A stretch of DNA of 64,000 nt from Ceratodon purpureus (lineage: Eukaryota > Streptophyta > Bryopsida > Pseudoditrichales > Ditrichaceae), in contig CM026421.1 in the NCBI GenBank assembly GCA_014871385.1, forward strand, positions 20,822,865-20,886,864. Direction: 5' to 3'. Below are positions 2,457 to 32,388 of this stretch, piece after piece. Numbering within the stretch: the stretch's first letter is position 1; each line of letters starts with the position of its first letter. The position numbers and the translations under genes are program-made. The notes beneath the pieces are model-generated. The model saw nothing but the letters and a program-made list of their open reading frames with translations, searched no databases and was not told the DNA's origin.

Positions 2457-2617
2457 GATTAAAACGGGAATACACCGATCCCTAGTATCACGTTACATAA
2501 TTGAAACTGGGCCACATGCAACAATTGGAATCCTCATCTTACATTTGCAGAATAATCGCAACTACAGGAGTCACCATAAACATCTTTAACGCAGACAAGG
2601 ATCAAAACAGAGGGGAC

Positions 2618-9443: not shown

Positions 9444-9787
9444 GCTCCCTTGTAGAAGTGACTGAGTGAATGCGAAGTGGAAACAGTACCCCGTAGATAT
9501 GAACAGAAATCATGAACAGAAACGAACAGTCATCCATTCTTAGGAAACTATGAGTCCAGCACACCGTCACGATTGGTTATCATACACTCAACACACACTA
9601 CGCCTCATGAGTATTGTGCACTGATGCTTTTTCCTCTGAATCGTAGAACCATTTATTACCCAGGATTGGGGCGATTGCGCTGCACATTACAAGTAGCGAG
9701 GTCTCCTCTTCACTCTGTGTCTACCTTGTGAGCCACCTACTTATACTTGTGTCTAAACGGCACTGACCTGAAACTCTATCACCTATA

Positions 9788-11064: not shown

Positions 11065-11289
11065 ATGGCAGCCACAATGTGGACACCGAGGGGTCTTGTA
11101 GTGCATAGAGATCGGTGGCCGTCTTCGCCTTCCTCTCAAGGAAGTTGTAGTTCCGCCGATTTCGAAGACGTATTCTCTGAAGCCTCTCCACTTATCTCGA
11201 ATTTGAATCAAACTATGGCCTTCCCCGCCAGAATGTCTCAATGTCCAGTTGTTGAAGGCCAATGTATACCAGAGGCAACACACGACCAG
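11065..11289 (+). CDS. Possible first exon of the CACTA second gene
   Basis: An ATG in good context (CTAATGGCAG) opens a 75-codon frame. It ends at CACGACCAG followed by donor GTATTTTTC, in phase 0. Splicing to the acceptor TTTCAG at 12071 would join it in frame to the ATGGCGCC start of the next exon, with a 782-bp intron. The segment is Ser/Pro-rich with no domain recognised. It could instead be untranslated leader or unrelated. Confidence 0.35.
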
Positions 11290-12071
11290 GTATTTTTCCT
11301 TTGTCCTTGTAATTGAATTCGTGAATTAATGAAATCGCCGAACTAAATTAGGGCGTCCTGTTCATTGTTTTCATAGTCTGTGAGGTGCCTAATGTTCGAC
11401 CCGTATGTTGTATTAGAAGCGTTGTCATATAATTATGTTATGTCCGTCACCGATAGAGTATACTGTAGATATTTAATTGTTGTGTACTCGCCATTGTGAC
11501 CGTCGTTTCCCTCCGCACAGACGACGAGTTCTGGCTATTGAGGTACGTTTTGATCCACTGAGTCAATTCAATTTCCTTCGTAGCTTCACGTTCACTGAAG
11601 ACTTTACCAATATTACAAAAATGGGCCGTGATATGTTTTTCTCTGCACAACTTTGCTCCTCTGACTGTTACACCTACAGGACACTTGTTCTATCTTAACC
11701 CGAGTCATGGTAGCACACACATACTCACGTAATCTAGGACACGACTTTTTCTTAAGATTGTATTTGTCTTTGACATTGGAGCAGTGAACAGCTTGAGTAA
11801 ATTTCACAATTAGTCTTTCATTTCTTTTTGTGACTAACAGAAATTGGAGGTGTGTTAATGGTAACAGCCCTAGGACTGCCTGTTGATAACCCTCATGTCA
11901 TCGTAAATTAGCACTCGTTGTTGCTTTTATCACCGCACATTGATCCATCCTCAACATGGGCGACAATTTTGGAAAACACCGAACGTTTGAAACTGACAGT
12001 TTATATGAGGGCAATTGAATTCCGTATACTTGCTTGACGTTGTGCGTGTGCTTGGTCATCAGATCTTTCAG

Positions 12072-12505
12072 ATGGCGCCACCTGCAGAGAACATCACGCC
12101 GCAACAGCAACTGTACCGACCACAGCCAGAGCAACTGAATTACGATGCAGCGAATTTACGATATCCATCTCATTTTGGGAGTATACCGGCGCAAGGACCC
12201 TGGAATGAAGTCGCCAGGTATTATGAACCAGTCAGTCAAGTCGATTATTCAGAGGACAGGAGTGCAAGTTATGTGACCCAGTCGGCATTGAATGGAGGCA
12301 CCGCCACTGGCGCCCCTGAAAGGCAGAGAGCGGAGCACATCATCACGCATTCAATGCCACAGCAAGACATGAGGCAGGAGGAGAACAGAAGACGCACAGC
12401 TGTGCGAGAGATCCAACGTCCTTATCGGAAAGAAATGGCGATGGCACACGCGCAGAACCGTGATCCGCATATCACTATACCTGTGTGCCCGGGGAAAGTT
12501 CGTAC
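12072..12505 (+). pseudogene. CACTA TnpA/Ptta-like second gene, 5' half, split by a nested transposon
   Basis: This exon (from ATGGCGCC) encodes a Gln/Pro/Tyr-rich N-terminal region ending in RDPHITIPVCPGKVRT. It is cut at 12505 by a 17.6-kb transposon and resumes at 30143. The 434 bases here plus the 466 bases 30143-30608 make exactly 300 codons once one GTAC copy is dropped, so the exon was continuous before the insertion. Together with exons 30710-30901 and 31312-32388 it gives about 722 aa, or about 797 aa if the exon 11065-11289 belongs. The gene is oriented opposite to the transposase. With the insert in place, the mRNA would need to splice out or read through 17.6 kb, so the gene is probably dead. 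Confidence 0.75.
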
Positions 12506-12616
12506 GTGAGCGGAGAGCGTAGAGCGGAGAGCGGTGAGCGTAGAATGGAGAGCACAGAATTGAGAATTAGGAAAATTTTCAAAAGCGAAGTAGACCCTAT
12601 AACCGTGGAAAATTAC
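12506..12616 (+). repeat. Left terminal inverted repeat of the 17.6-kb element
   Basis: The first 35 bases (12506-12540) are identical to the reverse complement of 30104-30138. They are built of repeated GAGCGGAGAGC words. A second conserved block at 12593-12616 matches the complement of 29938-29962. Confidence 0.92.
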
Positions 12617-13260
12617 GAAATTAAGGCTTAATTTTGACACTTTTTTTAGAAAAAGAGTATATTACCGTGGAAATTAGGGTTATCTCTGGTAAGAATTTAT
12701 TACGTTTGTTCTCAAAGATACAAATTAGGGCTGATGTCATGATGACGTCATGCATACATTCCTTTAGATTCGTCATGGGTTTAGGCAAGATACAATGATC
12801 AGGCGTTCAGTTTTAGATCGAACAGATAATTCTTTCATAGGATTATGTAAATGCACAAGGAAAAAAACAAATATCACAGAACATAAAGGAGGCAGGGTTT
12901 GAAAACTTCATGGAATATTTCAAAATTCGTGTATAATATCTTGACTGCTGAAACCAAGATATACCTTGTTAGAGTCCTTGTCTTCATCGAAGATTACTCT
13001 CTCTTCCTAGGCAGCGAAGCATCTGAATTTGAGTGATAGAAGTAGGAGATTTTCATCATGAAACAACACTTGGTAAGCTGGGTTCCACAGAAGGAGGTCA
13101 CTCTTGGTTTCTTGAGCTTGTCTCTAGGTGGCGTATTAGGATAGTCATACAGTCTTTGGCATGCTGTGCTGTATGCGAAGGTAGCGTAGGAGTTCGGGGA
13201 TGTCAATCTACAAGCTTGACTGTAACGTTTGAAGACTACAAGAATTCAGTGTGTTGCGCG
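12617..13260. other. Subterminal non-coding region of the element
   Basis: No gene is supported. A perfect palindrome ATGACGTCAT, the classic bZIP/CRE-type binding site, lies at 12742-12751. The segment about 12760-12985 is a diverged direct copy of about 13663-13866, on the other side of the small ORF. Confidence 0.45.
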
Positions 13261-13632
13261 ATGCCGAAGGTGTGTAATGCGAGATCCAGGAGGACGAGAG
13301 CGGCTGTAGGTTTGCCCCCAAAGGCACCGGCGAGTTATGAGGAGCTGCGGCCGTGGCTGCTGGAGGTGGAGCGCGCCAGGGAACGAGGCATGGACCTGCC
13401 ACCGTTTAGGCACATCGGAAGCCTCCATGTTGGTGAAGGTGAATGGCGTTGGACAGTGCTTTGTACCAATGAGCTTCTCCGTATTATGGAGTTGTCCCTA
13501 ATCCCGTATCCCTTGCTATCGAACGTCGATGAGAATCCAGTTGTTGAGCTGCCCGAAGTGATCATATCGGATGGCGAAACTTGCTGGTTTGATATGGACA
13601 AGAGTTGGACTGTATATCCTTCGAAGGATTAG
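13261..13632 (+). CDS. Small hypothetical protein, 123 aa, inside the element
   Basis: The frame is open further upstream, but ATG 13261 (TTGCGCGATGCCG) starts a plausible protein with a basic N-terminus (MPKVCNARSRRTRAA), a helical region (PWLLEVERARERGMD) and a Trp-containing C-terminal part ending in DMDKSWTVYPSKD. No family is recognised. It is flanked by two diverged direct repeats of about 200 bp, so it may have been captured or duplicated as a unit. GC content is higher than in its flanks, as in the other coding parts of the element. It could be a fragment of a larger gene. Confidence 0.4.
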   Translation: MPKVCNARSRRTRAAVGLPPKAPASYEELRPWLLEVERARERGMDLPPFRHIGSLHVGEGEWRWTVLCTNELLRIMELSLIPYPLLSNVDENPVVELPEVIISDGETCWFDMDKSWTVYPSKD

Positions 13633-14145
13633 TACTGTGAAGTCTAGTGGGGTGTTCGAATACAATCCTTTAGATTTGGTCATTCATTGGATCTAGATAC
13701 GAGTATTCCAGCATGACGGTTTTGGATAATATAGATGATTCTAGAAATAAGAAAAGAAAAAGCACCTAAAAGAAATGGTCTTAGAAGTCCGTGGAATATT
13801 TCAGAGTTCGTGTACAATAATGGAGTAGCAGAAACCAAGATGTACACCAACTCGAGAATAGGTAACATGACTATGCAAATGTGGGATTCTGAATGAGTAA
13901 AATATAATTAACAGCACAATATTATATTTGAGCCTTTCTTTTGTAACATTTTATTCTTCATATTATATTTGGAGCATTACAGTTGTGACATTTCATCCTT
14001 TACAAACACGGAGACAAATTGGACATGAGAATTATAACAAGTTTAGGTTCAGGGAAGTAGAGTAGACGAAGGAATAGGCAATGAAATCCAATTAAATCAA
14101 ATCAAATCAAATGAAAACAACAATAGACCGAAGCCTCTTTCAACC

Positions 14146-17100
14146 TCACAACATGCTACAGTCGCTACTTTCACTCTCAGAACTAGATGACTCCGAATCT
14201 CCTTCTACCGCCTCGTCATCGACAAATAGAAGGGCTCTGGGATCAAAAGTAGTTGGCCGACTAGGAACATATGTAAGGGCTCCAGATTGAAACGCCTGTG
14301 CTAAGTCCTCTGCGTAGTCCGGAAGTATGAAAGGCTGAATCGGGCTGGAATGTAGACGCCACGATGGAGTGGACACTGCACTTGGCACACGTGGCGGTGA
14401 TGCTGAAACTACTCTGCAATAGAGAACCGACTGTGGTTACATCGAGTACGTAGAGCTGCAAAGAGAAGTAATGCTTGGATAATTTGATCGTAGAATAGAA
14501 GACTTACACCACTTATCAGGTCTTGGTCTCTTTGGAGGCGCTTCGCCTGCTGCTGCCGGCCTTGGATGTTTAGGAGGGCCCATGGCGGATGGTTTGAGAA
14601 GGGCGTTGAATATGGCTTCGTCCTCCTCAAAAGCGAGAATGTGGCGACCAGTAGCCTGGGCAGCCTTGATGGAGGCTCCTGAAACTCGTAGAGATACAAA
14701 AAAATGAGAGACTGTTGTAAAAACGAGAGGAATAATTCAGCAAAGATATGCATGAATAATTACCTGTCCCAGCATTCCAATCAACAACTATGTCGCCGGG
14801 CTTTGACAGCTCCTCAAGTATGCCCTGCATCATGTCAATGGATTTCTCCCTTGCCCCTCTCCACGGCACCTCCCCATTCATGAGCTGCGAATCCACATCG
14901 GTGAAGTTGAAAATGGCATCACTCTCGGTAATGTTGAGGAGCCCATGTATCAGGTCTTCCTTCTTCGTCTGGAAGGAGAAAGTACTGCCACTACGAACGT
15001 AGACGCGAATCCAGAACCGCATAGTCTGCAGTCAAGCAAAACTAGTGAGTAAAATTAAGCGGAAATGGTTATCAATCAGTAAAGGGAAGGGTATGTTTAG
15101 GGCAATTACCAATTTCTCGGGGTTCGTTGGAGAAGTCAGGCCGAGTACATTGACACCCCACCAGTCCTTGAACAGCACGTATCCACCACCAGCAGCTTCT
15201 ACCTCGATATCCTTAGCCAGCTTCTGATCAGTGTTGTAGATGAGGCAGATGGCACCATCTTTCTGCAGGAATTCATCTGCAAAATGGAAGATGTCGTACA
15301 AATAATCCTTGTAGCGAGAGTTCCAAGGCGGAATACTCGTGGGGGGAACGGAAACGGATGGGACGGGAAGATTCTCAGGGATGTCGGCAATGATCAAGTC
15401 GACTCCCAGATGGTTCTCTTGTTTGCAGCGGTCCGGAACTTCGTTTTCGCGGCCTGCTCCAAACTTCAGGAAACAAGAAAGGAGAGTTAGTAACTACAGA
15501 GCGAGTAGAGGTGGCAGAATCCATTAAATGTCAAAATATAGGAACAAACCTTGCGAATGAAGTCTTGAGTCTTGATCCAATCCGGGTCGCCACCTTTTCT
15601 CTCCTGTCTCCTATTTCGCCGCAACAGGGAATCCACAGATGAGTTGAAGACGGAAACTTGTGAGGAAATCGAAGCTCCAGCGGAAGAAGTTGGTTGGGGA
15701 TATAGTTTGGCCTTCCTCTGCTCAAGGAGACCTCTGGTGATCTCCGAAGCACTGATCGAGGAAGGACCCGGTGAAGAAGTTGAAGAAGGCTTCGTAACCA
15801 CATTACCCGGAGAGGGTTCTGGAGCCGTCTGCTCTGGAGCGGAAGAAGCTGCACCAGTTTGCTGTGAAGCTTGTGAATGTGATCGCAAAGATTTCAGTCG
15901 CCTTCCTCTCCCTTTCTTCGGTGGAGGAGCCGATGATTGGTCTTCAGGGCCATTGTCATCTTCAGGACCGTCCACCGTCTCTTCGACCACCACCTTACCC
16001 CCATCGTGTAAAGTCTTGATGTCCACCTCAGAGTCAATTGTGAAACCGCGAAAACAATCAAGGTACCAGCATCCCTCAAGCAAGTGAGGAGATTTGTACC
16101 TTTTCAACTGCTCTGGAGAATAGATACACTGGTCCGAGGTTGTCTCCGTCCAAGAAAGGAAGTAGTTGGGGAGCTGGTGGACCGTGATGGCCCCCTTCAG
16201 AAGAAGCTCTCGCTTGAAGTACCTAAGGGAAGAAATTTAGAACCTTAGTAGCATAAGAAGCAATAGCGAATTAAAATATGCAAATGCAATACAGTTTCGT
16301 GACATACCGGAATATAACCCTCTTGACAACTTGAGCGGTTCCAGGGAATTTAGCGAAGTTGGACTTCTTGTCAAAGGGCTTCTCAGCCTTCTTCCCAATG
16401 AACGTAGGGAAGGCCTTGTCCCATAACATAATACGTGAACTCTCCACAAAGTCGCCCGGCTGTTGAACATCAGGAAATGCCCTCCAATCGATATTGAGGT
16501 TCTCCGACTTGAATATGTCCTCGACCTCGTTGACGACGGCTTCCTCCAACTGTAATACAGAATTCAAATAAGTACCAATGAGAGAAGAATTAAGAATGCA
16601 CTTTCTAATTGGTAAGGCATATTTCGAAACCATACCCCAGCCCAGAATGAAGCCCTGTTCAACCAGGGGTCGAAATCAGTATCCTTGAATCCGGGCTTTG
16701 GAAATCTGTATGATAGTCTGGAACTCAGAGATGAGTTCCACCACCTCAGCCACCGAACCTTGTATTTGGGCTCAACGGCCGCCGGACAGATCTTCTGAAG
16801 CTTATCGAGGGACATCTCAGGTTTTGAGTTCTGGCTGTAATGCCGATTGATGTGCCAGGAGTAAAGAATTAGAAACTATAATTGCATAACGTTGTAACAA
16901 TTCAAAGTACTATCTGAAACTAGATGAAGGTGTCACCTCGTTCAAGAAGTCGTCACCGTTCTTGGGATTTGCAATTGCCAAGTACTTGGTGAAGTCCTTA
17001 TTCTTGATGGAGTCCACCATTTTCTCAGACGCTTCACTCATGATTTCCCAAACCGCTGATGCAGTCTGTTCATGTGCCGGTGTCTTCTCCTTGTAGGCCT

Positions 17101-18831
17101 TAGCTGCTTCATCGGAGGCTGCAGCAATTTCCCGCTGTAGAAGGATAATCATTTTTTAGGGAAATCATAAATGAATGAGATAAAGCAATCAAAGAATGAG
17201 AGGAGATAAAACGAGCAAAGAGAGGGAGGAGGTAAAACTTACTCGGTAAAGAAAGGCGATGAAAACTCGAGTAGTTAAGGGAAACCATGACGGGTTCGGT
17301 GGCTTGTTCTTCAAACAAGCATCGTATTCTTCCGGGTACAGGAGGTCCTTGAAGTCCTCCAGCTTCATCATTCCGAATGAGCGGATTCGAAACAGTTTTG
17401 CTGGGAGATTATTCTTCACGTGGTCATTCTCAGTCGACCTGAGTATCTAATCAGTAAGTAATTGCCAAGATATATATTAGGAAAATACTTCAAAAGGATA
17501 ACAAATGCTCAAGATTTTATAACGTACCAATTGATGTCGTGCATGGCGTGCAAGAGATTGCCCACATGGCCACGGGGGTCAAGTACAATGCAATGCACAG
17601 AGATGTGCCAGGATGGGTCGTCTGCGTGATGCTCGTTGATATGCCTTAGCCATGCGGAAAGACGGTGATTACCCTCCCAGACATAAAACATCTTGTGCGA
17701 GAACTGCATCAACTCTTCGTCCCCAGAGATCTCATCATCAAAACGATCACTCGCTGCCAACCATAAAGGGCTCCAAGTGGCCATGATCTCCGCCGTCACA
17801 TTCTTCGTTTGCTCTTCAGTGTTGTACATGGAGATGTACATGACGCGGTCCCCATCTCTATATCCCTTCACAAACTCCCGCTCCAAGTGTTGTACCCCCA
17901 TTTCACCCACTGGTCTAACCTTGGCCATTGGGATCATCCTGCATAGGGGCACCAGCATTCGCGACTTATGCGTGGGTTTGATCCTGCAGTTGTTGATGAC
18001 GGCGTTGGAGTCGAGCTTGAATTGTATTCGATGCTGCAACTCCCCTTCCATAGCAGTCTTCAAGTCAGACGGGCAAGATGGTTTTGCCAACACATCTTGT
18101 GTTTGAGTAACCTGCCAAGAGGTGTGCGAATTGAAAGAGGAATCAGAATCAAAGGAAGTCATGCAAAGAAGACAAGTATATAAAAGAAAGTAACAATATA
18201 TCTTCATACTGTCATCTCGTTTGTAACAAGTCAGAATTCATCTGCGCTTGGGGGAACTATCTACGTGATGCTCGACTATAGTACTCCTTAGACTGTCTAC
18301 AGTTCCAGTGACGGCGCCTCCTCCAAAACCGCCTGGTTTGCTGAACCGGGCAGGGCAGAATTGCCGGTAGAGCGAACACCACATGCGCTGGCCTTCTCAC
18401 TCTAATAGGCGATGAAGGAGAGGGTGGAGACATAGGCGGTGAGCCCTGTAGAGGGGAAGTAGGCATGTAGGCCGGAGACGTAGGCTCATACACAGGGGAG
18501 GTAGGCATGTACACGGGAGAAGTAGGCATGTACTGTGGAGAGTGGACCTCGAGAGGTCCACTATCTCCAACTACAGGGTTGGCTACATCACAGGTACAAT
18601 AAGGCTGATCAAATGAATCCGAGAGGTCGGATACATTGATAACTGAAATGGGGGAGGTCGCGGACATCTCAGGAGCATCTGAATATACCTAGAGTAGAAG
18701 AAATGAAGAGAGGGTTATATTCCACCTTTAAAAGAGGTGCAATTAAAAAATTAAAAATATGAGACAAGTAAGAGGAACTCGTAATGTACCTCGGTCTCAG
18801 CTGGAGTTGGAACTTGACGTTCGCTCCCCAT
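14146..18831 (-). CDS. Transposon-borne CTD-heptad / ParB-like / DNA amino-methyltransferase-like protein, 12 exons
   Basis: My exon model is 18831-18790, 18688-18401, 18111-17528, 17438-17243, 17134-16937, 16830-16636, 16549-16308, 16222-15550, 15463-15110, 15025-14764, 14678-14508 and 14402-14146. All borders are GT..AG, all phases join, total 1153 aa. Residues 67-94 are four heptads of the form Y-M/E-P-T-S-P-x. Residues about 160-300 resemble a ParB-like fold, with FYVWEGNHRLSAWLRH in place of the usual GxxR motif. Residues about 807-1041 resemble a permuted (motif IV before motif I) DNA N6/N4 amino-methyltransferase: VDLIIADIPENLP at the motif IV position, then EKSIDMMQGI, GDIVVDWNAGTGASIKAA, TGRHILAFEEDEA for motif X/I and the AdoMet pocket. 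The canonical DPPY/F is replaced by ADIPE, so catalysis is doubtful. The C-terminus is an acidic Ser/Glu tail. ParB plus adenine methylase fusions are familiar from phages; in a plant transposon this is unusual. Confidence 0.72.
18449..18532 (-). repeat. Four tandem 21-bp units coding CTD-like heptads
   Basis: Each 21-bp unit encodes YMPTSPV, YMPTSPV, YEPTSPA or YMPTSPL. Synonymous differences between units argue that the peptide, not only the DNA, is maintained. The units are followed by further SPP/PSSP residues. Confidence 0.85.
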
Positions 18832-19036
18832 ATTATCCTCAGAAGACTCCTAGTTCATAGAAAAATAAATTTTCTATCAATAATAAAACAAATGTAAAGA
18901 CAAATAAATGTGAATTAACGTCCATCAAACCTCCATTCAAAATTAAGGTTTAAGACAAATGTACAAAACATATAACCAGAAGCTCAAGCCAGAGAACAAG
19001 TAAACTCCATCAATTTAACACAAAATAAGAATCATT

Positions 19037-19480
19037 CATAAAAAATTGAGGCCATCATTGCTAGAGCTTTGTAACATTAGCTCCGGCCTAGGGAATCGAA
19101 CCCGATCTCTTCAAATAGTAAACATTAAGCCCCAAGCCGAGCAGCCCAAGGCAGCAGCATGCGAGCAAACATCACGAAATCAAATAACAATAAGTGACCC
19201 GCTCCCCTACTGTCGTCACAGACAGTAGGGTGCAAGGTCCATATAAACAAATGAAAATTCAAAACCTTAATTATCTAAGACATATATAAAATCCGAAAAT
19301 TTAAATAAAAAAAAGTAATAAACATTAAGCCACGAAGCCGAGCAGCCCAAGGCAGCAGCATGCGAGCAAACATCACGAAATCAAATAACAAATCACAATG
19401 AAGAGAGTATCGGGTTCGATTCCCCCAGGCCGGAGCTAGTGCTAGAAAGCTCTAGCAATGATGGCCTCAATTTTTTATGG
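19037..19480. repeat. Fold-back with tRNA-like arms at the left edge of the 201-bp array
   Basis: About 75 bases at 19037-19110 reappear as the reverse complement at about 19402-19480. Each arm contains GGGTTCGATTCC, a perfect Pol III B-box/T-loop sequence, next to GGCCGGAGC, but no full tRNA cloverleaf or clear A-box is present. Between the arms lie two diverged array units. This looks like two SINE-like or tRNA-derived fragments in inverted orientation. Confidence 0.6.
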
Positions 19481-22213
19481 AAAAATCTTACCCCTTCAAG
19501 TTTCAGAAAATTAAAATAAAAAAAAATAAAAAACATTAAGCCCCAAGCCTAGCAGCCCAAGGCAGCAGCATGCGAGCAAACATCACGAAATCAAATATTA
19601 ATAAGTGACCCGCTCCCCTACTGTCGGCAACGACAGTAGGGTGCAAGGTCCACATTTTGAAAAATAAATTCAAGACTTTTATGATTGAAATGCAATAAAA
19701 AATAGGAAAATTAAAATAAAAAAGAAATAAAAAACATTAAGCCCCAAGCCGAGCAGCCCAAGGCAGCAGCATGCGAGCAAACATCACGAAATCAAATATC
19801 AATAAGTGACCCGCTCCCCTACTGTCGGCAACGACAGTAGGGTGCAAGGTCCACATTTTGAAAAATAAATTCAAGACTTTTATGATTGAAATGCAATAAA
19901 AAATAACAAAATCAAAATAAAAAAGAAATAAAAAACATTAAGCCCCAAGCCGAGCAGCCCAAGGCAGCAGCATGCGAGCAAACATCACGAAATAAAATAA
20001 CAATAAGTGACCCGCTCCCCTACTGTCGGCAACGACAGTAGGGTGCAAGGTCCACATTTTGAAAAATAAATTCAAAACTTTTATGATTGAAATGCAATAA
20101 AAAATAACAAAATTAAAATAAAAAAGAAATAAAACACATTAAGCCCCAAGCCGAGCAGCCCAAGGCAGCAGCATGCGAGCAAACATCACGAAATAAAATA
20201 ACAATAAGTGACCCGCTCCCCTACTGTCGGCAACGACAGTAGGGTGCAAGGTCCACATTTTGAAAAATAAATTCAAAACTTTTATGATTGAAATGCAATA
20301 AAAAATAACAAAATTAAAATAAAAAAGAAATAAAACACATTAAGCCCCAAGCCGAGCAGCCCAAGGCAGCAGCATGCGAGCAAACATCACGAAATCAAAT
20401 ATCAATAAGTGACCCGCTCCCCTACTGTCGGCAACGACAGTAGGGTGCAAGGTCCACATTTTGAAAAATAAATTCAAAACTTTTATGATTGAAATGCAAT
20501 AAAAAATAACAAAATTAAAATAAAAAAGAAATAAAAAACATTAAGCCCCAAGCCGAGCAGCCCAAGGCAGCAGCATGCGAGCAAACATCACGAAATCAAA
20601 TATCAATAAGTGACCCGCTCCCCTACTGTCGGCAACGACAGTAGGGTGCAAGGTCCACATTTTGAAAAATAAATTCAAGACTTTTATGATTGAAATACAA
20701 TAAAAAATAACAAAATTAAAATAAAAAAGAAATAAAAAACATTAAGCCCCAAGCCGAGCAGCCCAAGGCAGCAGCATGCGAGCAAACATCACGAAATCAA
20801 ATAACAATAAGTGACCCGCTCCCCTACTGTCGGCAACGACAGTAGGGTGCAAGGTCCACATTTTGAAAAATAAATTCAAAACTTTTATGATTGAAATGCA
20901 ATAAAAAATAACAAAATTAAAATAAAAAAGAAATAAAACACATTAAGCCCCAAGCCGAGCAGCCCAAGGCAGCAGCATGCGAGCAAACATCACGAAATAA
21001 AATAACAATAAGTGACCCGCTCCCCTACTGTCGGCAACGACAGTAGGGTGCAAGGTCCACATTTTGAAAAATAAATTCAAAACTTTTATGATTGAAATGC
21101 AATAAAAAATAACAAAATTAAAATAAAAAAGAAATAAAACACATTAAGCCCCAAGCCGAGCAGCCCAAGGCAGCAGCATGCGAGCAAACATCACGAAATC
21201 AAATATCAATAAGTGACCCGCTCCCCTACTGTCGGCAACGACAGTAGGGTGCAAGGTCCACATTTTGAAAAATAAATTCAAAACTTTTATGATTGAAATG
21301 CAATAAAAAATAACAAAATTAAAATAAAAAAGAAATAAAAAACATTAAGCCCCAAGCCGAGCAGCCCAAGGCAGCAGCATGCGAGCAAACATCACGAAAT
21401 CAAATATCAATAAGTGACCCGCTCCCCTACTGTCGGCAACGACAGTAGGGTGCAAGGTCCACATTTTGAAAAATAAATTCAAAACTTTTATGATTGAAAT
21501 GCAATAAAAAATAACAAAATTAAAATAAAAAAGAAATAAAACACATTAAGCCCCAAGCCGAGCAGCCCAAGGCAGCAGCATGCGAGCAAACATCACGAAA
21601 TCAAATAACAATAAGTGACCCGCTCCCCTACTGTCGGCAACGACAGTAGGGTGCAAGGTCCACATTTTGAAAAATAAATTCAAGACTTTTATGATTGAAA
21701 TGCAATAAAAAATAACAAAATTAAAATAAAAAAGAAATAAAAAACATTAAGCCCCAAGCCGAGCAGCCCAAGGCAGCAGCATGCGAGCAAACATCACGAA
21801 ATCAAATAACAATAAGTGACCCGCTCCCCTACTGTCGGCAACGACAGTAGGGTGCAAGGTCCACATTTTGAAAAATAAATTCAAAACTTTTATGATTGAA
21901 ATGCAATAAAAAATAACAAAATTAAAATAAAAAAGAAATAAAACACATTAAGCCCCAAGCCGAGCAGCCCAAGGCAGCAGCATGCGAGCAAACATCACGA
22001 AATCAAATAACAATAAGTGACCCGCTCCCCTACTGTCGGCAACGACAGTAGGGTGCAAGGTCCACATTTTGAAAAATAAATTCAAAACTTTTATGATTGA
22101 AATGCAATAAAAAATAACAAAATTAAAATAAAAAAGAAATAAAACACATTAAGCCCCAAGCCGAGCAGCCCAAGGCAGCAGCATGCGAGCAAACATCACG
22201 AAATCAAATAACA
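19128..22213 (+). repeat. 201-bp tandem array, about 14 regular units plus diverged edge copies
   Basis: The anchor AGCCCCAAGC recurs at 19740, 19941, 20142, 20343, 20544, 20745, 20946, 21147, 21348, 21549, 21750, 21951 and 22152: exactly 201 bp apart and nearly identical. Copies near 19128, 19328 and 19539 are more diverged. Every complete regular unit, and the 19128 and 19539 copies in variant or identical form, has a GC-rich half with the perfect hairpin CCCTACTGTCG-GCAA-CGACAGTAGGG (11-bp stem, GNRA-type loop) and an AT-rich half. The 19328 copy and the truncated last copy lack the hairpin. No ORF runs through it. The near identity implies recent amplification or ongoing homogenisation. 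Confidence 0.95.
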
Positions 22214-22225
22214 TTTAAATCCGGC

Positions 22226-22560
22226 GCGGGAGAGGGACAGGGAGAGGGACAGGGAGTGACCGCGAGGGAGTGGGAGAGGGAGAGGGACAGGGAGTGACCG
22301 CGAGGGAGTGGGAGAGGGAGAGGGACAGGGAGTGACCGCGAGGGAGTTGGAGAGGGAGAGGGACAGGGAGTGACCGCGAGGGAGTGGGAGAGGGAGAGGG
22401 ACAGGGAGTGACCGCGAGGGAGTTGGAGAGGGAGAGGGACAGGGAGTGACCGCGAGGGAGTGGGAGAGGGAGAGGGACAGGGAGTGACGGCGAGGGAGTG
22501 GGAGAGGGAGAGGGATAGGGAGTGACGGCGCGGGAGAGGGACAGGGAGATGAACAGGGAG
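22226..22560 (+). repeat. G-rich minisatellite with repeated G-quadruplex motifs
   Basis: Units of about 38 bp repeat GGGAGAGGGAGAGGGACAGGG followed by AGTGACCGCGAGGGAGT, about eight times. Each unit has four GGG runs with 3-nt loops on the plus strand, a canonical G-quadruplex pattern. The minus-strand open frame here is only a translation of the repeat. Confidence 0.85.
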
Positions 22561-22864
22561 TGACGGCGCGGGAAGTTCCGAAACCGGATTCTCAAATCCC
22601 CAAGTTCCGAATCTTCATCAACCACAAGCATTTCCAGAATCGAACTTCCCCACACAACCAGGCAACCACGTGACCCGAATCCCCAACATAAAGAACCTTC
22701 AATGCGCAACATTCTAATCCTCGAATCTTCCCATCACTCAAGAGCCGCGAATACCCAATACTAAAGATATACCCAAAAAACTTCGAATCCCCAAGTAAAC
22801 CCATCAAACCTTAACACCCAGCAAGCAGACTCACAATTTCCAAGCACCCAAGCACCCTGCAATC

Positions 22865-23909
22865 TCACAACATTTCCCCACAAACTCCCCAACAGCAGAG
22901 CTCGCCTACCTCGTCGTCTTCGTCGTCGTCGTCGTCGCCTACCTCGAGCTGGCCGTCGACCTGGTCCGCTTGCTCAACTTCGAGCTGGCCGTCGACCTCG
23001 TCCGCTTGCTCAACTCCGAGCTGGTCCTGAAGCTCTTCTCTCCCATCAACGTCGCCGACCTGCGCGGCAGGGGCAATCTCCTCATCATCACCATCGCCGC
23101 GGCCTCCCAGATTCACCTCTGCCAGCGCAGCCATAGCTCTCCCTCCCACTCCTGCTGCTAAGATGCTTTGCCTGGCTCTCCTCGCTTCGACTCGGAGTTC
23201 TTCCAGTTCATTGCAGTCTCCAACCCGATCCCCGACCCCTCTCAACCACATTGTACTCTGTATAAAAATAGCTTGACATTGAATCCATGGATGGATGGAG
23301 CGGCCCCTTTCTTTTGAGACATATGCTTAGACTGTGTCAAGTGCCGCGGCCCCTCTCACTGAGACTTAGAGCAAACCTCACTCTCTTCAAACAAACTAAT
23401 TGATGAACAGCGTTACACTAATATAGTCTATAATTCATAATTCACAATAGCGTGGTTCTCGACGGGTTAGAAATACTTACCTTATCTGATTGAGAATCTG
23501 GCTCCCCTGTCGAGAACTCCTTGAATGAAATCGATGGTTGCGGAGACTCTAGTTTCTGACTACAATTAAAGACTAATTCTTCCGTCATGGCCTCACGTGC
23601 TCCTCTACTTAAATGTTCAACCTGTTCCTGCTCGTGATTCTCGACGTCCGTGTTTTCTAATAATTCCTCTTTCTCCTCTACTATAGAGTCGAGAATGAGT
23701 TTGCGAAGGCTACAAAACTTCAAAGCTACAGGCAGATCTCCTCCTCTCCGCTTCACGGGTGCACTCAAATGGTCACTTTTAGAATCTACCTGCTTACGTG
23801 ATGCTCTCCTCTTTCTAGCTCTTCTATTTGTAAAATCAGTGCGGCCAGGTTTCCTTCTCTGTTTAGGAGTAACATAAGTGGAGGGAGATGGCCCTCCACA
23901 CTGCTTCAT
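22865..23909 (-). CDS. Accessory protein with basic N-terminus and acidic repeat C-terminus, two exons
   Basis: Exon 1 runs 23909-23481 (143 codons, donor GTAAGTAT) and exon 2 runs 23257-22865 (131 codons, acceptor ATACAG), both phase 0, giving 273 aa. The N-terminal part is strongly basic (KQRRKPGR, NRRARKRRASRK), typical of a nuclear or DNA-binding segment. The middle is Glu-rich, and the C-terminus has repeats of the type VEQADxVDGQLEV ending in a run of Asp/Glu. I do not recognise the family. It sits divergently from the transposase gene, sharing the 636-bp region 23910-24545, so co-expression from one promoter region is likely. It could be a transposase partner, such as an end-binding or nuclear-entry factor, but that is inference. 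Confidence 0.55.
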
Positions 23910-24545
23910 GTGTCTAACCAAAGGAAGGACTCTCACACAAAAAGACTTTCATGAAAACTTCTCCCTGCTTAAATACCTCTCACGTACAACTATTCTCCTG
24001 GCACCCTAAGTTGATATACAATCTCAACCACTGACACATTGTCTGTCCACTTTATATTAAGAATATCATTAACAATTCTATAAATGAAGCTAGATTTAAA
24101 ATATCAACCTTTAATTATAAGGAATATATCTAAGTGCACTATAAATTGAAAGATTTGAATCAAGCACTTCAATCATGCTCCTTTTTATATTCATTATATT
24201 AAATGTAGAATTAAAATGACGGCTCATTCTAATCTTATAATACATCATGTCAAATAGAATCCGCTCTACGATTCAAATTTTAAAGTAGAATTCAATTAAC
24301 CTCACCTCATATACTTAGACCTGCAAAAAGTGGCTCTGTAATTAGTTAGCGCCGTCTCTCTTAAATCATACATTCGTTACCTAACAGACACCATCATTCC
24401 ACAACTATTCACATGGACATTCCAACCAGAATAAAATGATCATCAACGATGCATCATTCCTCTCACTTTGCTCTCGCGATAGCGCTTGGCTGATACACTC
24501 ACTCTCCTCCCTTCTTCCACTAGTATCACTGAGTTGCCTGCGAAC
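23910..24545. promoter_or_regulatory. Intergenic region between the divergent accessory and transposase genes
   Basis: AT-rich, non-coding. TATA-like words (CTTTTTATATTC near 24181-24191) are present. It is inferred to carry the start sites for both flanking genes of the element. Confidence 0.35.
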
Positions 24546-27500
24546 ATGGGGATGGTCTGTCTGTACGCCCAAGGCATGGGCATCCCTCTCAGGTTTCGCG
24601 TAGATGACGATGGTCTAGCTACGGTGTCCTCTCTTCGCCTCAGTCTCAGATTCCATTTCCGTGAAGATTCCATCAGTATAGAGGAGGAGATGTTTGATGA
24701 CGTTACTGCCGAGGTTACCCACACCCTCGGGCAACCTTCAGTGAGAGATGAGAACAACATGTTGCAGTGGAGACTCCTCCCTGGATCCTATAGAGTCTAT
24801 GGTCTTACTGATTCTCTGATGGCTGCATCCACTGAGATCCTCACCCCCCGTCGCTCTTCTACTTGCACAATTCAGACTCCCTTACCTCGTGATGTCAAAG
24901 TCAAAGTCGAGCCTGGTACCGAGACTTCAGATGTAGAGAAACCTCCTCCGACCGTCATATCTCTCTCTTCTGATGACGAAGTCACTCCCGTCAAGTTCGT
25001 GCCCAAGGTCCACGCAGATGCTCCTCCTTCCATTGTGTCTCCTCCATTGTCCCAGGTCACAGTTAGCATTGTTCCGCTCCTTAAAGAGATTGCTAAGACG
25101 CGTGGGTCCAAAAACATTTTGAAGAAGATAGACTATTCCACTATTAGACACGAGAGAGTAGAGTACTTGCCTGCGAAGTTTGATGGTCCGGTTCTTTTTG
25201 AGTTGCCCCCAGCTGCTGCAGGATCCTCTAAGCTCGCCGCCAAGTCAATGCAGGGAATGGATAAACGATACGACGGACACTTGTGGACCAAGACCATCAC
25301 AACAAACATCAAAAACGACTTCGGACTCTCTTTTCGAAGTTCCACCTGCGTCGGATGGCTGCGGTGCACGAACGAGGAGTGTGACTTCCTGAAGCGTGTT
25401 CCCAAGATCTTCGAGGTTAACGAGACTGAGTTCGAAGGCTGTACCCTGCAAGCTTTTCTCATGGATCAGCCTCCTCCATCTGACTCCACGCTAGTGTGCA
25501 AGGTATGTAAAGAACCTCCATCATGTGTAGCTACATGCGAGGCTAAGATTTATTATGTTGTGGGCAAACCAAATCAGACTAGAGCTTGTATTCACATAGG
25601 AACACATCATCATCCAGTGAAAGTAGGAGACTACAGAGACTCTAAAGCAGAGATTAGTAGCTTAATAGAAGAGCAGGTAGAGATGAACAACAAAGCAACA
25701 AAGAGCGCCGTTGTCCTGGAGGCGAGCAAACTCCTCATCGGCAGCTACCTTCTACAGCCCGAGGATGCACCACCGAGGAAGCTGACGATGGAGGAGCTGG
25801 TTCCTGTTCTGGATCGATGCAAAGATATGGCGTCGCCGAACATCCGCAACAAAGTCGCCACCTTCAAAAGATTCAAAAGGTACGGAATCATGGACGGTAT
25901 CACCAAGCTCCGTGGTAACAGTCTCTGGGCGTATGTCCAGGAGAATAGGTTTCCTGGTCAGGGATCCATGCGTGACAAAGTCTTTGTCTTCAAGATGTCG
26001 GAGGTCGGTCCGGGCAGTGGTGTCGACTTGGTCAGCCGTATGCAAGCTGGTGGCGATTTGGAGAACGCATGGATCATGTTCGACCATGTCAAACGCGTCA
26101 AAGATTGGTCGACCATGGCGTGCCATGTGTACGACGCCACGTACTGCCGCGTGATGACAATCGCCACTTGCGACATGCAGTCCGAGGACACGGACGCCCA
26201 GCTCGTCTTCTGGAAAAACCTGAACCTGGTCATGGAGATCAATGGCGTTGCAGCGCCGAACTTCAAGGGGTTCATGGCGGATAACGCACAGGCGAATTGG
26301 AATGCAGTGCGAATCCTTTACGGCAATGGCAACAAAGAGGACCCAATGGAGGACCGGGAGAGGTCGTGCTTGTTCCACTGGACTCAGAACATGGTGGCGT
26401 ATACGCAGAAGCACTTCCCCGAAGAACTCTGGGAACAGCACAAGAAGATGTGCACTCAGTACAAGAATGCGACCAGCATGGCAGAGGCGGAAACTCTGTA
26501 CCACGCGTTGCGAGCATGGTGGGCATCCACCGGTGTCGTTGGCGAAAGCGGGCTCATCAAACTCGATCAGTGGCTGTCATTCTGGCACCACCGCTTCCGC
26601 CAATGGGGGGGATTCATGACCGAGGTATTATCTCTGAACTCTGTTTTGATGTTTTTCATACTGGTTTCCTAGCCCAAACCTACAAAACTCTAATCCGTGA
26701 ATCTAATGGCACCTACTGTTAAAATTGCAGAAATTCACGGAAGAAGAACTCACAGAGATGCCCACCTGTAACCTCGCCGAAACAGTTCATAACAAGTGGC
26801 TCCAGGCTTCTGGAAACAACGGGAACGACCTGTACGTTGCTACCGTGGACGATTTCGTTCGGGCTTTTCTTCAAGTTGTTAACTACTACCAATTCCTCAA
26901 AGGTGACGTCGGCGGAACAGGACCGTCCAAGAAGGAACTCAGACTCCGGATGGCTGAACGCAACGCCAAGAAATGGGGAAATCCTACACTGCTCGACAAG
27001 CCCATGCTCGATATGCCAGGCGCGGATGAGTTCTGCACCCGTCAGCCTATCATGCCTGGAGCGGAAGTCTTCGGTTCACAGAAGCGAAAAGCCGACGTCC
27101 CCATCGGAGCTGACGAGGAGTCTCATCGCCCGGACAAGACAAACTTCTCACGCCCAAGAGGCCCAAGACGTGCCGTCAGGGCTCGCCCTATGCAGATGCC
27201 CGTCATTGTGGAAGACGACTCCGAACACGAAACCGAGGTACAATGTACGCAACCTCCTGCCCAGGAAGTTGATTCCCCTTTACCTTCACCTGTGAACAAG
27301 GGCGGCATTCGCCATGTCAACGCGGTTGAAGAAACCAAGGTGGACGTGAAGGAGTGGCACATTTCGAGACTTCACAAACTTTCTGCGAAGTGCTGCTGGG
27401 CCCAGAGAGCTGAAACGAAGAAGAAGTGCACTGAGAGAATCGTCAGGGGGCCCCTTTGCACAGCTGCACCGACCTACACTGGGCTGTGGACTAACTATCG

Positions 27501-28224
27501 CAGGAACACTGTTGAGAAGACAGAGTTCTTCTTCTGCTCCGACGATATTGAGCGCTGCGTGAAAGGCTCTAAGCGCAAGTGGGTAGCGCACTACTCAAAG
27601 GACCAGGAATTCCCCTCCATTCCAGAGGTCTGGCCAGTGAAACTAGGTACTAATCTAAAACTGACTGAGATTCTTGCCCTTGAAGCAGCAGGCTTTCAAC
27701 TTCCGCCTAAAAAGCCGGTCTCCCCAAGACGCCTCTTCTCCTCTGCCCCGCCCCCTGCGAATCTCAACTCGGTGCCAGTCCCTGCAGACGCTGACCGCTA
27801 CCCAGGCAAGAGAGACGGCAAGATGGTGAAGCGCACTGCCACTCGTCCCAATCCGGCGCAGCGACTATCCATGGGCTCCTCCGAGTCTCTCAAAGCGCGC
27901 CTCCGTTCCGTCACCATGATACCTGAGCCGGGCCACGGTTGCATCATTGGGCTGGATTCGGGCGTCGCTCCTCACATCACACGTTACCAGATTACCATCA
28001 GTTCTTACCCTGGTTGCACTTGCCCAGCATTCAAGAAGACGATGACTACGTTCAAAGGCAGGACTCAGTTCACGTATTGTAAGCACCTTTACTACATACT
28101 CTTGAAGGTCTGCAACCGTGATCCCGAAGCCGAGCTTTTCATCCATGCGCCTACCTTTAGCTTCAACGAGGTCAGGCTTCTCCTAGAGAGTGGAATCTTG
28201 CGTCACCCCTTGGCGAAGAAGTAG
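24546..28224 (+). CDS. MULE-like DDE transposase with SWIM zinc finger, two exons
   Basis: Exon 1 runs 24546-26624 and exon 2 runs 26731-28224, with a 106-bp intron (GAG|GTATTATC ... TTGCAG|AAATTC), giving 1190 aa. The frame is open upstream, but ATG 24546 has a good context (GCGAACATGG). From the N-terminus: an unknown domain; a SUMO-type patch (VKVEPG near residue 120 and TVISLSSDDE near residue 136); a Cys/His cluster (LVCKVCKEPP ... RACIHIGTHHHP) like the zinc knuckles of MULE proteins; the catalytic core with YDATY (D530) and FMADNAQANW (D579) followed by ERSCLFHWTQN; a second Cys cluster; and a C-terminal SWIM finger CTC-x18-CKH (C1122, C1124, C1143, H1145). The third acidic residue cannot be fixed by eye. 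The frame is intact, so it could be active. Superfamily by motif is MULE-like, but the 4-bp target duplication does not fit. Confidence 0.8.
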
Positions 28225-28478
28225 GTAGCCCTCCTACTTTAGAACTGCCATTTCCACAATGGCCATTTGTCACGTAGTGAATGATTTTAGTAATATACCA
28301 TGTACTAAGTCAGCTATTCAGAAGCTGTATTGACTTTTTCATTATATTAAAGGCTTTGTCGTTCACATTGATTGCATTCTATTTCAATACATTCTATCTT
28401 GAAGAAGTGCACTATATACCTCGTATCCTCTGACATGTACCCTTTATTACAGCAAACATATACTTGTTATTAGATGTC

Positions 28479-28931
28479 CTAATCTTCGATCCTAACACGT
28501 TTAGGGTTGCCCACTACACTATCAGCAGGATTGCGAACCTCTGACTGTACTACAGGACAAACTACATTCGCATTCACTTTCGTTACCACACTTGGAGCGT
28601 GTCCTTGGTATGATCGTTTCAGCAATGGCCCACCTCCCCGCCTCCGATTCACTGATTCCCTGGAATAGGTTCCCCTTGGGATCTTTCCAACCTTGGAGTA
28701 TGCATGAGGTTGCAAAGGCACATCTGCGTCCTCCTCCAGCACTCTGATATCATCCGAATTTTCTGAACGTGGAGGGTCAGCTCTAACATCCGGTTGCACG
28801 TCAACATCCGTTGTTAAAGGACGCCCTTGGCTGCTGGCCATCACCTCTTCTTCGTCCTCCACCTCAACATATGGTTGAAATGGACAAACATCGTCAGCAA
28901 GTGAAACAACAATATCTCTGACGTCTTCCAT
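28479..28931 (-). CDS. Hypothetical 150-aa acidic/basic protein inside the element
   Basis: ATG at 28931 (complement), stop at 28479, uninterrupted. The N-terminus is acidic (MEDVRDIVVSLADDV, YVEVEDEEEV) and the C-terminal half is basic (NRRRGGGPLLKRSYQG, NPKRVRIED). DIVVSLADD resembles a SUMO-interacting motif. No family is recognised. It is convergent with the transposase, and the 254 bases between them are non-coding. Confidence 0.45.
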   Translation of the reverse strand: MEDVRDIVVSLADDVCPFQPYVEVEDEEEVMASSQGRPLTTDVDVQPDVRADPPRSENSDDIRVLEEDADVPLQPHAYSKVGKIPRGTYSRESVNRRRGGGPLLKRSYQGHAPSVVTKVNANVVCPVVQSEVRNPADSVVGNPKRVRIED

Positions 28932-29219
28932 AACTGCTGTCCCGCAGTACGGAAAAGAGCTTCACAAAACACCAACAGAAAAGAGGAAGAGACATTCCAT
29001 AATCCTAACTTAAATATCCGTGAAGGAGATGCTTGGCGCCCTTGAAAATCGGATATTCATTCATTTGAAAGTTGCATCTTCCTCAACTGAATGGAAAAGG
29101 ATGAGGGTTGAGCAGAAGTCATTTAGCTTTTAAAATTTAAAAATAATAAAAAAAATTAAAAAAAAAATTTAAAAGCAAAAAGGAAAAAAAGCAAAAATAA
29201 ATATTAAGGTTGAAAATAA

Positions 29220-29640
29220 TATGAAGGCGACTAAGAAAATGAAAGAGAAAATAAAATGAAAGACAAAATAAAATGAAAGAGAAAATAAAATGAAAGAGAA
29301 AATAAAATGAATGAGAAAATAAAATGAATGAGAAAATAAAATGAATGAGACAATAAAATGAAAGAGAGAATAAAATGAAAGACAAAATAAAATGAAAGAG
29401 AAAATAAAATGAAAAGGAAAATAAAATGAAAGAGAAATTATAATGAAGGAGACAAGAAAATGAAAGAGAGAATAAAATGAAAGAGAAAATAAAATGAAAG
29501 AGAAAAAAAAATGAAAGAGAGAATAAAATGAAAGAGAAAATAAAAGGAACTAGAAAATAAAATGAAAGAAAAAATAAAATGAAAGAGAGAATAAAATGAA
29601 AGAGAAAAGAAAATGAAAGAGAATTAAAGGAAAGGAAAGA
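29220..29640 (+). repeat. Purine-rich minisatellite of about 17-bp units
   Basis: Tandem AAAATAAAATGAAAGAG-type units with point variants, about 25 copies. Nearly all purine plus T on the plus strand; the Phe/Ser/Leu-rich minus-strand frame is only a repeat translation. Confidence 0.85.
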
Positions 29641-29937
29641 TAGATAGAGTAATGGAAGTTAATATGAAGAATAAAAGAAATAAACCATGTAGACCATGGC
29701 GGATGATTTCTAACAATGTTAAGAAAATGTTACGATATTAAACGTTACTGTATCCCTCTTAAGAGCTTTAATACCAATACATTTTATGCGGTAATTTGCA
29801 TATAAATTTGAGGAGATAAGGGGAATTAATGTATGCCTAAACTAGTTAGAAGGAGCTGGAGCATAGTAATTGGTGCACGTTAAAAAATTAATCATCAAAA
29901 AAAAGAGAAAACGAACTACAAATTCAATGAAAACACT

Positions 29938-30138
29938 GTAATTATTCCACGGTTATAGGGTCAATAAAATTACTAAAATTAGTATTTTTCCAAAAATATA
30001 CTGAGAATATTCGAATCTTCTAATTTTATATTTTATTTTTAGTAAAAAAAGTGCTATTTTTAGGTTCTGTCCCCCACTCTGTGCTCTCCGCTCTCCAAAT
30101 CTGCGCTCACCGCTCTCCGCTCTACGCTCTCCGCTCAC
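29938..30138 (-). repeat. Right terminal inverted repeat of the 17.6-kb element
   Basis: Bases 30104-30138 are the exact reverse complement of 12506-12540. The inner block 29938-29962 matches 12593-12616. The right arm is longer because extra bases lie between the two blocks. Confidence 0.92.
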
Positions 30139-30142
30139 GTAC

Positions 30143-32388
30143 AAGCTACGTCCCTGTGTGCCCAGCAGGTACTGTACTCGGACTCAAGAGCCCATGGCAT
30201 AGAGCCGCACGCCTTTGCGCTAGACAGACCTTGAATTATAAAGTAAGAAGCTATAAGGCAAGGACAGATTACTGGAATGCCCAAGTAGATGTCATTGCCT
30301 CTAAACTTGCTCAGCAATTCACATACTCTAGGCCACTTGATATCTCGTATCTACGAAAATTCTTAAAAAATACTCTAAAAAATGATAGGAAGGTATGGAA
30401 ACAACACTTTATTGAAACAAGCGGCCTTCGGCATCCCCGTTGTCCTGAAGAGGCTTTCATCGAATGGAAGAAATGGTGGGTGAGTGCAGCTGGTAGAGAG
30501 GAGTCGATCCAGATGGCGGAAATGAGGAAAGGAAAACGGAAAGCTCAAAGCCTTGATGGCGACCGCCAATGCCCAAGTGCTCCATCGACAGCCCCTTCCC
30601 CATACATGGTACGTTACTCTGAACAAATTTGAACTTGTATCATTCCTTCAGGGGACTGAGATCCATATTTGACACACCGTTTACATGGCGTGGATTTGTC
30701 ATCATCCAGGTTCCGGGTAACACTCCCACTAGACTTGCTGCCGAGAACATGCCAACACCATCCATGTTTTACTCCGAATCCAACACAAGCATGAGCTCCG
30801 CTCATCAGCACAGCACTCCTAATACTACAATCAACAACGTGGGCACTCAGGCTTCCATCCAGGGTCCGCGTGGAGAGGAGAGGACTCCGAGTTTTCCCAG
30901 GGTAGAGAATCTGAGATCTTCATGCACCTGTTTTGTCAATTACCTTAATCTATCTGAAAACATCTAACACTTGGCAAAGGCAGATACAGTGTTCAACATG
31001 TAAAGTCGTCGAATTCTACTACCTCTTTGTATCGACGTTCGGTGAGCAGTATCCATCTACTACGTCTTTCTTATATTACTACGTCTAATGGTAGCACTTC
31101 CTGCTCTCTTTCAAATGTCCGAGGTCTCTGTTCTGGCAGCCTTGTACTCTTTCGGAGTCGCCTACTTCATGTCAGTCAAGCCAGGCTAAGACTCCGTGGC
31201 CATCATTATGTTGACTGCAGTTAATCATATAGTTCCCTCACTCATATGACGTTTAAGTTGCCTTAGAAATGAACGAACATTTATTATGTGTTTTTTTTTT
31301 TTCTTTTGCAGAGCACTTCTACACCACCATACGTGATTCGCGAGACAACCAGAATTAACGCCTTGGAGAACACGGTGCAACGCATAGCAAGCGACCTAAG
31401 CAGTAGCAAAGACCAATTACGGGAAGTGAAAGAACTTCTACTGCGATTGATTAATTCCGACCCTCCGCCGAATCCTACGGTCACCGTCAGCGTCGAGACG
31501 CCTATCGTCCCAGGCCATACAACCAACTTCCAGTCTCCGGATTTTCAAGCTGGCACTACTTTGAGAGAGAGTGTTCCCACCGAGGATGGGATGTCCGGAG
31601 AACAGAGAACACAGAGGGAGTCCAGCGTCCGCATGCACGACGTTCACCGTCACCCTATTCCGTTTTCGCAGACGCCAGTCGCTGGCGGCAGTGCCACACC
31701 TCAGATGTCACCTTCTTGGGCTTCGGGCGACACAATCCCAGTGACACCAAACACTCTTCTTCAAAATTTCACTAACAAGATGCCTGTGGGTGCTGCAGTG
31801 TCGACAGAGGTGTCGGCCTCGATTCGTACGTCACGGGCGGATCAATCTCCCCACCCCAGCATCGATAACAATGGCGACCAGGGAACGTCTGAACGCCGTC
31901 TCCAGGATGGCAGGCAGAACATCAATCCACTTCCCCAATCCAGCCCATCCTCAGCATGCCGTGACGGAGTGAGCACCCGTGGCATGATTCTTGAGGAACA
32001 ATCGCAGCTCCCAGTGAGAGGACCCCGACCACGTTTTGAAATTGGACTATTGCCTCGAATCTGCGATGGCCCAGTTGCCGCAAATTGTCTCTGTTTTATA
32101 CTACATCCTGACATGGGCGACACTGTCGTGGCTGAAGGGAGGACAGGTGGGAGTTGGAAGAGTCCGAAGCAGAAGTTTGGAAATCTTTGCAAGGACGGTG
32201 AGCAGATGGTACAGATACATAAAATCAACTCACCAAACCTACCACTTATCTTCATTGAAGATCGACAACCGTTTACATTGATGGATCATGCATTGGTTAA
32301 ATCCTCGGGGAGTAGAGTGTATGTAAAATGGCAGTCAAGGTTATTGGTGAAGAAGCCGAAGACAGCCCCAACCAGGAAGATCACCTGA
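30143..32388 (+). pseudogene. CACTA TnpA/Ptta-like second gene, 3' part
   Basis: This continues the frame broken at 12505. Exons: to 30608 (donor GTACGT), 30710-30901 (64 codons, donor GTAGAG) and 31312-32388 (acceptor TTTTGCAG), all phase 0. The first part (YKARTDYWNAQVDVIASKL ... HPRCPEEAFIEWKKWW) resembles the plant Ptta/En-Spm transposase family. The third exon starts with a heptad-like helix (RINALENTVQRIASDL, REVKELLLRL) suited to dimerisation. The C-terminal part (GDTVVAEGRTGGSWK, QMVQIHKINSPNLPLIF, YVKWQSRLLV) resembles the TNP1/En-Spm C-terminal domain, which in CACTA systems binds subterminal repeats. The first two exons alone keep an open frame after the inserted element, so a truncated product is possible. 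Confidence 0.7.

Follow-up and report, generated by a model that had tools for sequence, protein, structure and literature searches.

VANC, a protein encoded by VANDAL elements of Arabidopsis, binds a short motif that is tandemly repeated in the non-coding DNA of its own element and induces loss of methylation; the motif varies between element lineages (PMC5735166), and VANDALs are described as non-terminal-inverted-repeat elements (PMC6446971). In bacteria, single proteins are described that join an adenine methylase to a ParB-type domain, for example B. cereus Bce_0392, and the two domains turn up repeatedly among proteins of mobile elements (PMC5512222). Moreover, retrotransposons of dinoflagellates and charophytes encode C5 cytosine methyltransferases (DNMTs) shown to methylate CG (PMC5890265), and fungal DNA transposons carry TET/JBP, presumed to aid in escaping silencing (PMC12730594): DNA-modification genes are thus a recurrent transposon cargo. 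Here we analyze a stretch of 64,000 nucleotides from the moss Ceratodon purpureus (the window), which holds a Mutator-like element (MULE) that carries, divergent from its transposase gene, a cargo gene for a protein with heptads like those of the polymerase II C-terminal domain (CTD), a ParB-like domain and a methylase-like domain.

By analogy, VANC is the closest working analogue of this cargo protein: both belong to a MULE with an accessory gene and with short, lineage-specific motifs arrayed in non-coding DNA of the element, whereas the moss element has inverted repeats, a palindromic motif and ParB- and methylase-like folds, VANC being compared here by its description. In its parts, the cargo protein comes nearest to bacterial and phage ParB-methylases and to polyvalent proteins, with which the ParB–methylase fusion is shared; in contrast to them, the moss gene is spliced and resides in a plant DNA transposon, and its product is set apart by the D[IV]PE form of motif IV, an extended middle region and the CTD-like heptads. 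The retrotransposon DNMTs likewise represent a DNA-methylase gene carried by a transposon, but they are C5 enzymes in retrotransposons, whereas the moss cargo is a homologue of permuted amino-methylases in a MULE. The fungal TET/JBP systems resemble it as DNA-modification cargo of a DNA transposon and differ in that the enzyme is a dioxygenase and that no MULE is among the transposon lineages named there (PMC12730594). A literature search over titles and the beginnings of abstracts, with most subscription papers outside its reach, returned no report of a ParB-like or amino-methylase-like gene in a plant transposon, and the terms moss, land plants and Physcomitrium are absent from PMC12695648. 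As far as this search reached, both the domain combination and its setting in a plant MULE are new.

A splice search on the minus strand from 18831 to 14146 yielded 12 exons with consistent phases and 1160 amino acids; a cruder chain of 1297 amino acids had been dropped as the first model of the gene. The borders of exons 2, 3 and 6 were then shifted by codon-position variation among 30 genomic copies, which extended exon 2 to 18265, set the start of exon 6 to 16875 and replaced the 1160-residue chain by one of 1208 residues (Table 1). Copies were searched in the source genome (362.5 Mb, 151 contigs): for exons 1–6 the 30 best matches of exon 3 were taken, the window's copy included, and exons 8–12 were checked on a separate set of 30 copies chosen by exon 10. 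In the refined model GT/AG is retained in 649 of 660 cells (22 splice sites in 30 rows), the remainder being two gaps and nine changes, three of which fall at one donor. The exon number and phases of the initial annotation are thereby upheld, its length of 1153 residues being replaced by 1208, and exons and motif are preserved alike across 30 copies. Judged by these splice sites and phases, the 12-exon gene is real.

Exon 3 matches at least 150 genomic places (the best 150 of 1901 candidates) and exon 10 likewise at least 150 (the best 150 of 1620). The 110.5-Mb contig G000 C6, which we take to be possibly a sex chromosome, holds 56 of the 150 listed ParB-exon places, about 46 being expected by length; these comprise 8 of the 30 most similar places and 48 of the other 120. 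Across the refined exons 1–6, minor alleles reach a mean frequency of 1.39, 0.90 and 3.67% at codon positions 1, 2 and 3, respectively. The pooled ratio of nonsynonymous to synonymous polymorphism (pN/pS), computed for ten exons with exons 1 and 7 left out, is 0.19, 0.20, 0.15, 0.15 and 0.12 for exons 2–6 and similarly low in exon 10 (0.13), with higher values in exon 8 (0.35), exon 9 (0.49) and exons 11 and 12 (0.51), the values of exons 3 and 10 being biased because both exons served for choosing copies. For any given exon, between 0 and 5 of the 30 copies carry an in-frame stop, the gene's own stop not counted. From the codon-position variation, the retained splice sites and a pN/pS of 0.12–0.51, we infer that the cargo gene is held under purifying selection across many copies.

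The whole cargo protein found no match among 5.8 billion proteins (7992 candidates scored); domain-wise searches returned 50 matches among 2252 candidates and 97 among 109, from which alignments A3 (48 of the 50, with P0033 and P0034 omitted) and A4 (75 of the 97 plus the window) were built. The structure model of exon 3 shows a ParB/sulfiredoxin (Srx) fold, and its best structural matches are ParB chains, some of them nucleotide-bound. Proteins of the ParB/sulfiredoxin superfamily carry a GxxRxxA box. Exon 3 has this box in the form GNHRxxAW, with G in 74, N in 75, H in 76, R in 68 and A in 71 of 76 rows, and the EGNHR string that had been read as ParB-like is located on the predicted fold. 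None of 76 members matched a Pfam ParB family at E up to 0.1, and the ParB part had no match in the phages or viral contigs searched; going by the model, exon 3 nevertheless likely adopts a ParB/Srx fold. The four CTD-like heptads YxPTSPx encoded by exon 2, claimed from the outset, are present and conserved in 30 copies, among which they vary almost solely at positions 2 and 7.

The C-terminal domain is, by profile and fold, a homologue of the beta-class (permuted) N6/N4 DNA methylases. It exceeds the curated cut-off of PF01555 (26.7 bits) with 27.4 bits for the whole protein and 32.7 for the domain alone, and all four members of alignment A2 match this family (E up to 0.1). Among phage methylases, tblastn aligned SfV orf48 over the motif-I part (38%, 5e-7) and another match over 92% of the domain (5e-5). 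A profile of four divergent moss copies matched DpnA/M1.HpyAVI (2.4e-8) and CcrM (1.3e-6) in the PDB over the whole domain; its positions 1–214 align on DpnA/M1.HpyAVI with motif IV preceding motif I, so that the proposed order of motifs holds over the full domain. An AlphaFold model (AF2, pLDDT 78) of the paralogue P0004, the Ceratodon purpureus hypothetical protein KC19_N032100, matches M.BceJIV (3.1e-13), CcrM (4.8e-12), MboIIA and the rotifer N4CMT; on this paralogue's model the fold is that of beta-class DNA methylases and not of an unrelated Rossmann enzyme.

The catalytic motif IV of this class reads (D/N/S)PP(Y/F/W). The moss domain has D[IV]PENLPVP in its place and has thus lost the first proline and the aromatic residue, although the window retains the aspartate and the second proline of motif IV as well as the GTG of motif I; because of this loss we file the domain as a homologue of the class and not as a proven enzyme, and of the amino-methylase identity originally proposed the homology stands, whereas the canonical DPPY does not. 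ADIPENLPVP is found in 30 of 30 copies examined, the window included. Of 40 relatives that have a residue at the aromatic position, 32 show glutamate, in a set biased toward similar motifs as its members were partly found by shared words. The two tyrosines at this position fit the two bacterial rows. Distant genomic copies read DVPEDLPVP (L072) or come nearer to a working motif, namely DQPY in L004 (G000 C8) and DQPF in L073 (C12) and L074 (C7). Since the aromatic residue is replaced by glutamate, a domain that is non-catalytic or of altered activity is somewhat likelier than an ordinary writer of 6mA or 4mC; the domain perhaps still binds S-adenosylmethionine (SAM).

The partner of the cargo gene is the divergent gene on the plus strand, which, given its linkage and pattern, is the element's transposase. 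No MULE or SWIM Pfam model matched the two transposase ORFs scanned, up to E 5; the gene is called MULE-type because of the duplication length, the inverted repeats, a SWIM-like CxCxnCxH pattern at residue 1122 and a DDE-like pattern judged by eye. MULEs combine a target-site duplication of about 9–11 bp with terminal inverted repeats: in the window the duplication is 10 bp long and the inverted repeats measure roughly 80–100 bp with gaps, and 10 bp was also found in eight of eight other copies, whose ends were predicted from the left end and the transposase exon and then fetched (two read as 11 bp by chance match, and one has a diverged right end). By its inverted repeats and 10-bp duplication, the element is intact. 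Forty places were scored for its left-end sequence (the best 40 of 1243 candidates), and in 36 of them a listed methyltransferase (MTase)-, ParB- or MULE-exon place lies inward within 22 kb. The transposase core was scored at 140 places (the best 140 of 2183 candidates; 99–100% identity), 59 of which have a ParB- or MTase-exon place within 16 kb among the matches listed; the other 81 lack a partner among these matches, which is not readable as absence. Orientation is divergent in 29 of 30 ParB pairs and 47 of 48 MTase pairs, against about 1.9 pairs per list expected by chance. The TNP2 transposase at 7371–8315 (PF02992, 243 bits) was rejected as partner: among 150 ParB-exon and 150 TNP2 places listed, no pair but that of the window lies within 25 kb, where chance predicts about 1.9 pairs within 15 kb, and TNP2 lies inward of none of the 40 element ends among the matches listed. 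Consequently, the initial annotation was right in placing a transposon cargo gene of a land plant beside a transposase in an intact element, as the linkage across genomic copies also indicates, but the transposase concerned is the MULE-type gene and not TNP2.

Cargo gene and transposase are transcribed apart across a shared intergenic region that holds a tandem array. The window's palindrome, CCCTACTGTCGGCAACGACAGTAGGG, is 26 bp long and present in 13 exact copies, and the window contains its half-site CTACTGTCG 27 times, against 0.17 expected. Among 30 related loci, one of them the window's, 28 show a palindrome of 20–26 bp in the upstream DNA seen. Its arms differ between copies: CCTACTGTC, CCCTCTGTC, CCCACTGTC, GGCTCTGCC, GGCCCTGCC, GGCCCTGCT, GGCCCCGA, CAAGTGTCGG and AGCATTCGG were found, each with its inverted partner, and the repeat unit differs alongside. 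As the palindromes were found by querying inverted repeats, shuffles served as a control: of 13 upstream regions, namely the window's, eight selected as divergent and four selected as linked, 11 have an inverted repeat with arms of at least 8 in the repeat consensus, against 0.52 expected. Symmetry is thus retained while the sequence changes, in the manner of a site bound by a dimeric protein, and these palindromes are candidate sites of the cargo protein. The palindrome is not simply set by the lineage of the ParB exon: L096, whose exon is 19% off the window's, has the identical palindrome. In L102, one and the same array contains the loop between the arms in either orientation (GTGAGA and TCTCAC), as though palindromes were inverted individually.

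The two halves of the element differ in their divergence. In 12 linked pairs, which were taken from the 30 linked ParB pairs and include four selected because their ParB identity is low, the transposase core is 98.9–99.6% identical to the window's and the ParB exon 81–98%; the synonymous divergence (dS) from the window is 0.07–0.17 for the transposase core and, for the ParB exon, 0.04–0.07 in five pairs, 0.29–0.31 in three and 0.52–0.93 in four. Owing to this discrepancy, the halves probably have different histories, with cassettes swapped from one element to another; unequal synonymous rates alone are a less likely cause.

The arrays of palindromes, together with the number of copies that are conserved, make an element-specific DNA-binding role of the cargo protein likelier than the initial annotation could tell. 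ParB proteins bind palindromic sites as dimers. We tentatively propose, with a confidence just short of even, that the element encodes a sequence-specific factor, assembled from bacterial-type parts, which in a VANC-like manner marks the element or shields it. On this view the cargo serves the Mutator-like transposon as its second, accessory gene, and a dimer of its product would recognize the palindromes of its own element family; once bound, the dimer would concentrate the methylase-like, perhaps SAM-binding, domain at the array, while factors that usually associate with polymerase II may be drawn in by the CTD-like heptads. Promoter and array would thereby be marked or shielded from the host's silencing, which would keep both genes expressed. 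This marking, shielding or anti-silencing role is reasoned by analogy.

Other readings distribute these functions differently. The protein could be an active N6A/N4C DNA methyltransferase that is guided by its ParB part and marks its own element as the retrotransposon DNMTs may do, which we regard as unlikely but a serious contender: the full-length homology to CcrM and M1.HpyAVI in the profile and to M.BceJIV and rotifer N4CMT in the paralogue's fold, the residues kept in motifs IV and I, and DQPY or DQPF in distant paralogues of the same genome would suit it, whereas the missing first proline and aromatic residue, the glutamate of most relatives and the uniform DIPE of the copies argue against it. 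Palindromic arrays next to a ParB-like gene also recall sopC and parS, and ParB chains, some nucleotide-bound, head the structural matches of the modelled domain. A ParB-like clamp might accordingly load at the array as at parS and spread over the element, serving copy retention or chromatin exclusion with the methylase part as a relic; yet that part remains under constraint and no ParA-like gene was recognized in the element, whose minor ORFs were not searched for one, so that we consider such a clamp very improbable.

A rather doubtful alternative, though one with precedent, gives the protein an accessory role in transposition, like that ascribed to mudrB: it would bind the array to build a transposition complex or to regulate the transposase and have no part in silencing. 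MULEs with extra ORFs are known, one of which is apparently needed for integration (PMC6446971), and cargo gene, transposase and inverted repeats move together; however, the array lies between the genes rather than at the element ends, and a near-constant transposase core paired with far more variable ParB exons makes no tight co-adaptation apparent. MULEs also often acquire fragments of host genes (PMC6446971), but that the cargo is such a captured fragment and a passive Pack-MULE passenger is scarcely credible in view of its mostly open frames, kept splice sites, a pN/pS well below 1 in many copies and a broad family of relatives, the selection test contradicting passive carriage.

Table 1. 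Coordinates of the MULE and its predicted features in the window.
Feature	Position	Strand	Basis or remark
Left target-site duplication, CTGTGTGCCC, 10 bp	12481..12490	.	also 10 bp in eight of eight other copies
Mutator-like element, 17,663 bp	12491..30153	.	bounded by terminal inverted repeats
Left terminal inverted repeat	12491..12576	+	begins GGGGAAAGTTCGTACGTGAGCGGAGAGCG
Right terminal inverted repeat	30056..30153	-	
Right target-site duplication, CTGTGTGCCC	30154..30163	.	
Cargo gene, 12 exons, 1208 aa	14146..18831	-	splice search, codon-position variation, genomic copies
Cargo gene, exons 1-6	18831-18790, 18688-18265, 18095-17528, 17438-17243, 17134-16937, 16875-16636	-	
Cargo gene, exons 7-12	16549-16308, 16222-15550, 15463-15110, 15025-14764, 14678-14508, 14402-14146	-	
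Four CTD-like heptads YxPTSPx, exon 2	18449..18532	-	30 copies
ParB/sulfiredoxin-like domain with GNHRLSAW, exon 3	17528..18095	-	structure model, alignment
Permuted N6/N4 amino-methyltransferase-like domain, exons 9-11	14508..15463	-	motif IV ADIPENLPVP, motif I DWNAGTG
Tandem array, 201-bp unit x 15.4	19113..22213	.	13 exact palindrome copies CCCTACTGTCGGCAACGACAGTAGGG, variant at 19205-19230
MULE-type transposase gene, exons 24546-26624 and 26731-28224, 1190 aa	24546..28224	+	
Small ORF 3' of the cargo gene, inside the element, possible third gene	13261..13632	+	no Pfam match

Beside its two main genes, the element may hold a third in the small ORF of Table 1; in this region 27 of 29 other copies align to 13300, and two end at 13934. 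Joining the flanks of the element gives a single open frame through the insertion site, and the MULE therefore sits inside a CACTA (TNP2) element, the putative empty site being read from the joined frame. This host element (window positions 4619–10617 on the minus strand and from 30164 onward) has TNP2, DUF4216- and DUF4218-type ORFs and also holds the open frame split by the MULE. Elsewhere in the window, at 57878–58693 on the minus strand, lies an ORF with a ubiquitin-like domain (PF00240), whose Crinkler-N match is weak and below cut-off.

Only a few cases of transposons escaping silencing are understood in detail. In its broadest form our proposal, which is possible but decidedly tentative, is that plant MULEs may recognize themselves by a ParB-like, CTD-mimicking, SAM-binding methylase-like protein that reads the palindrome arrays of its own element, with cassettes diversified and exchanged around a near-constant transposase in an arms race or by incompatibility, and with either a mark other than 5mC being set or silencing being kept off. 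A multi-copy element in a haploid moss offers the protein, its likely copy-specific target sites and natural variants, which makes specificity testable by swaps. Moreover, the finding raises the question of whether amino-methylase folds of bacterial type act in land plants and what role a D[IV]PE motif IV would play in them.

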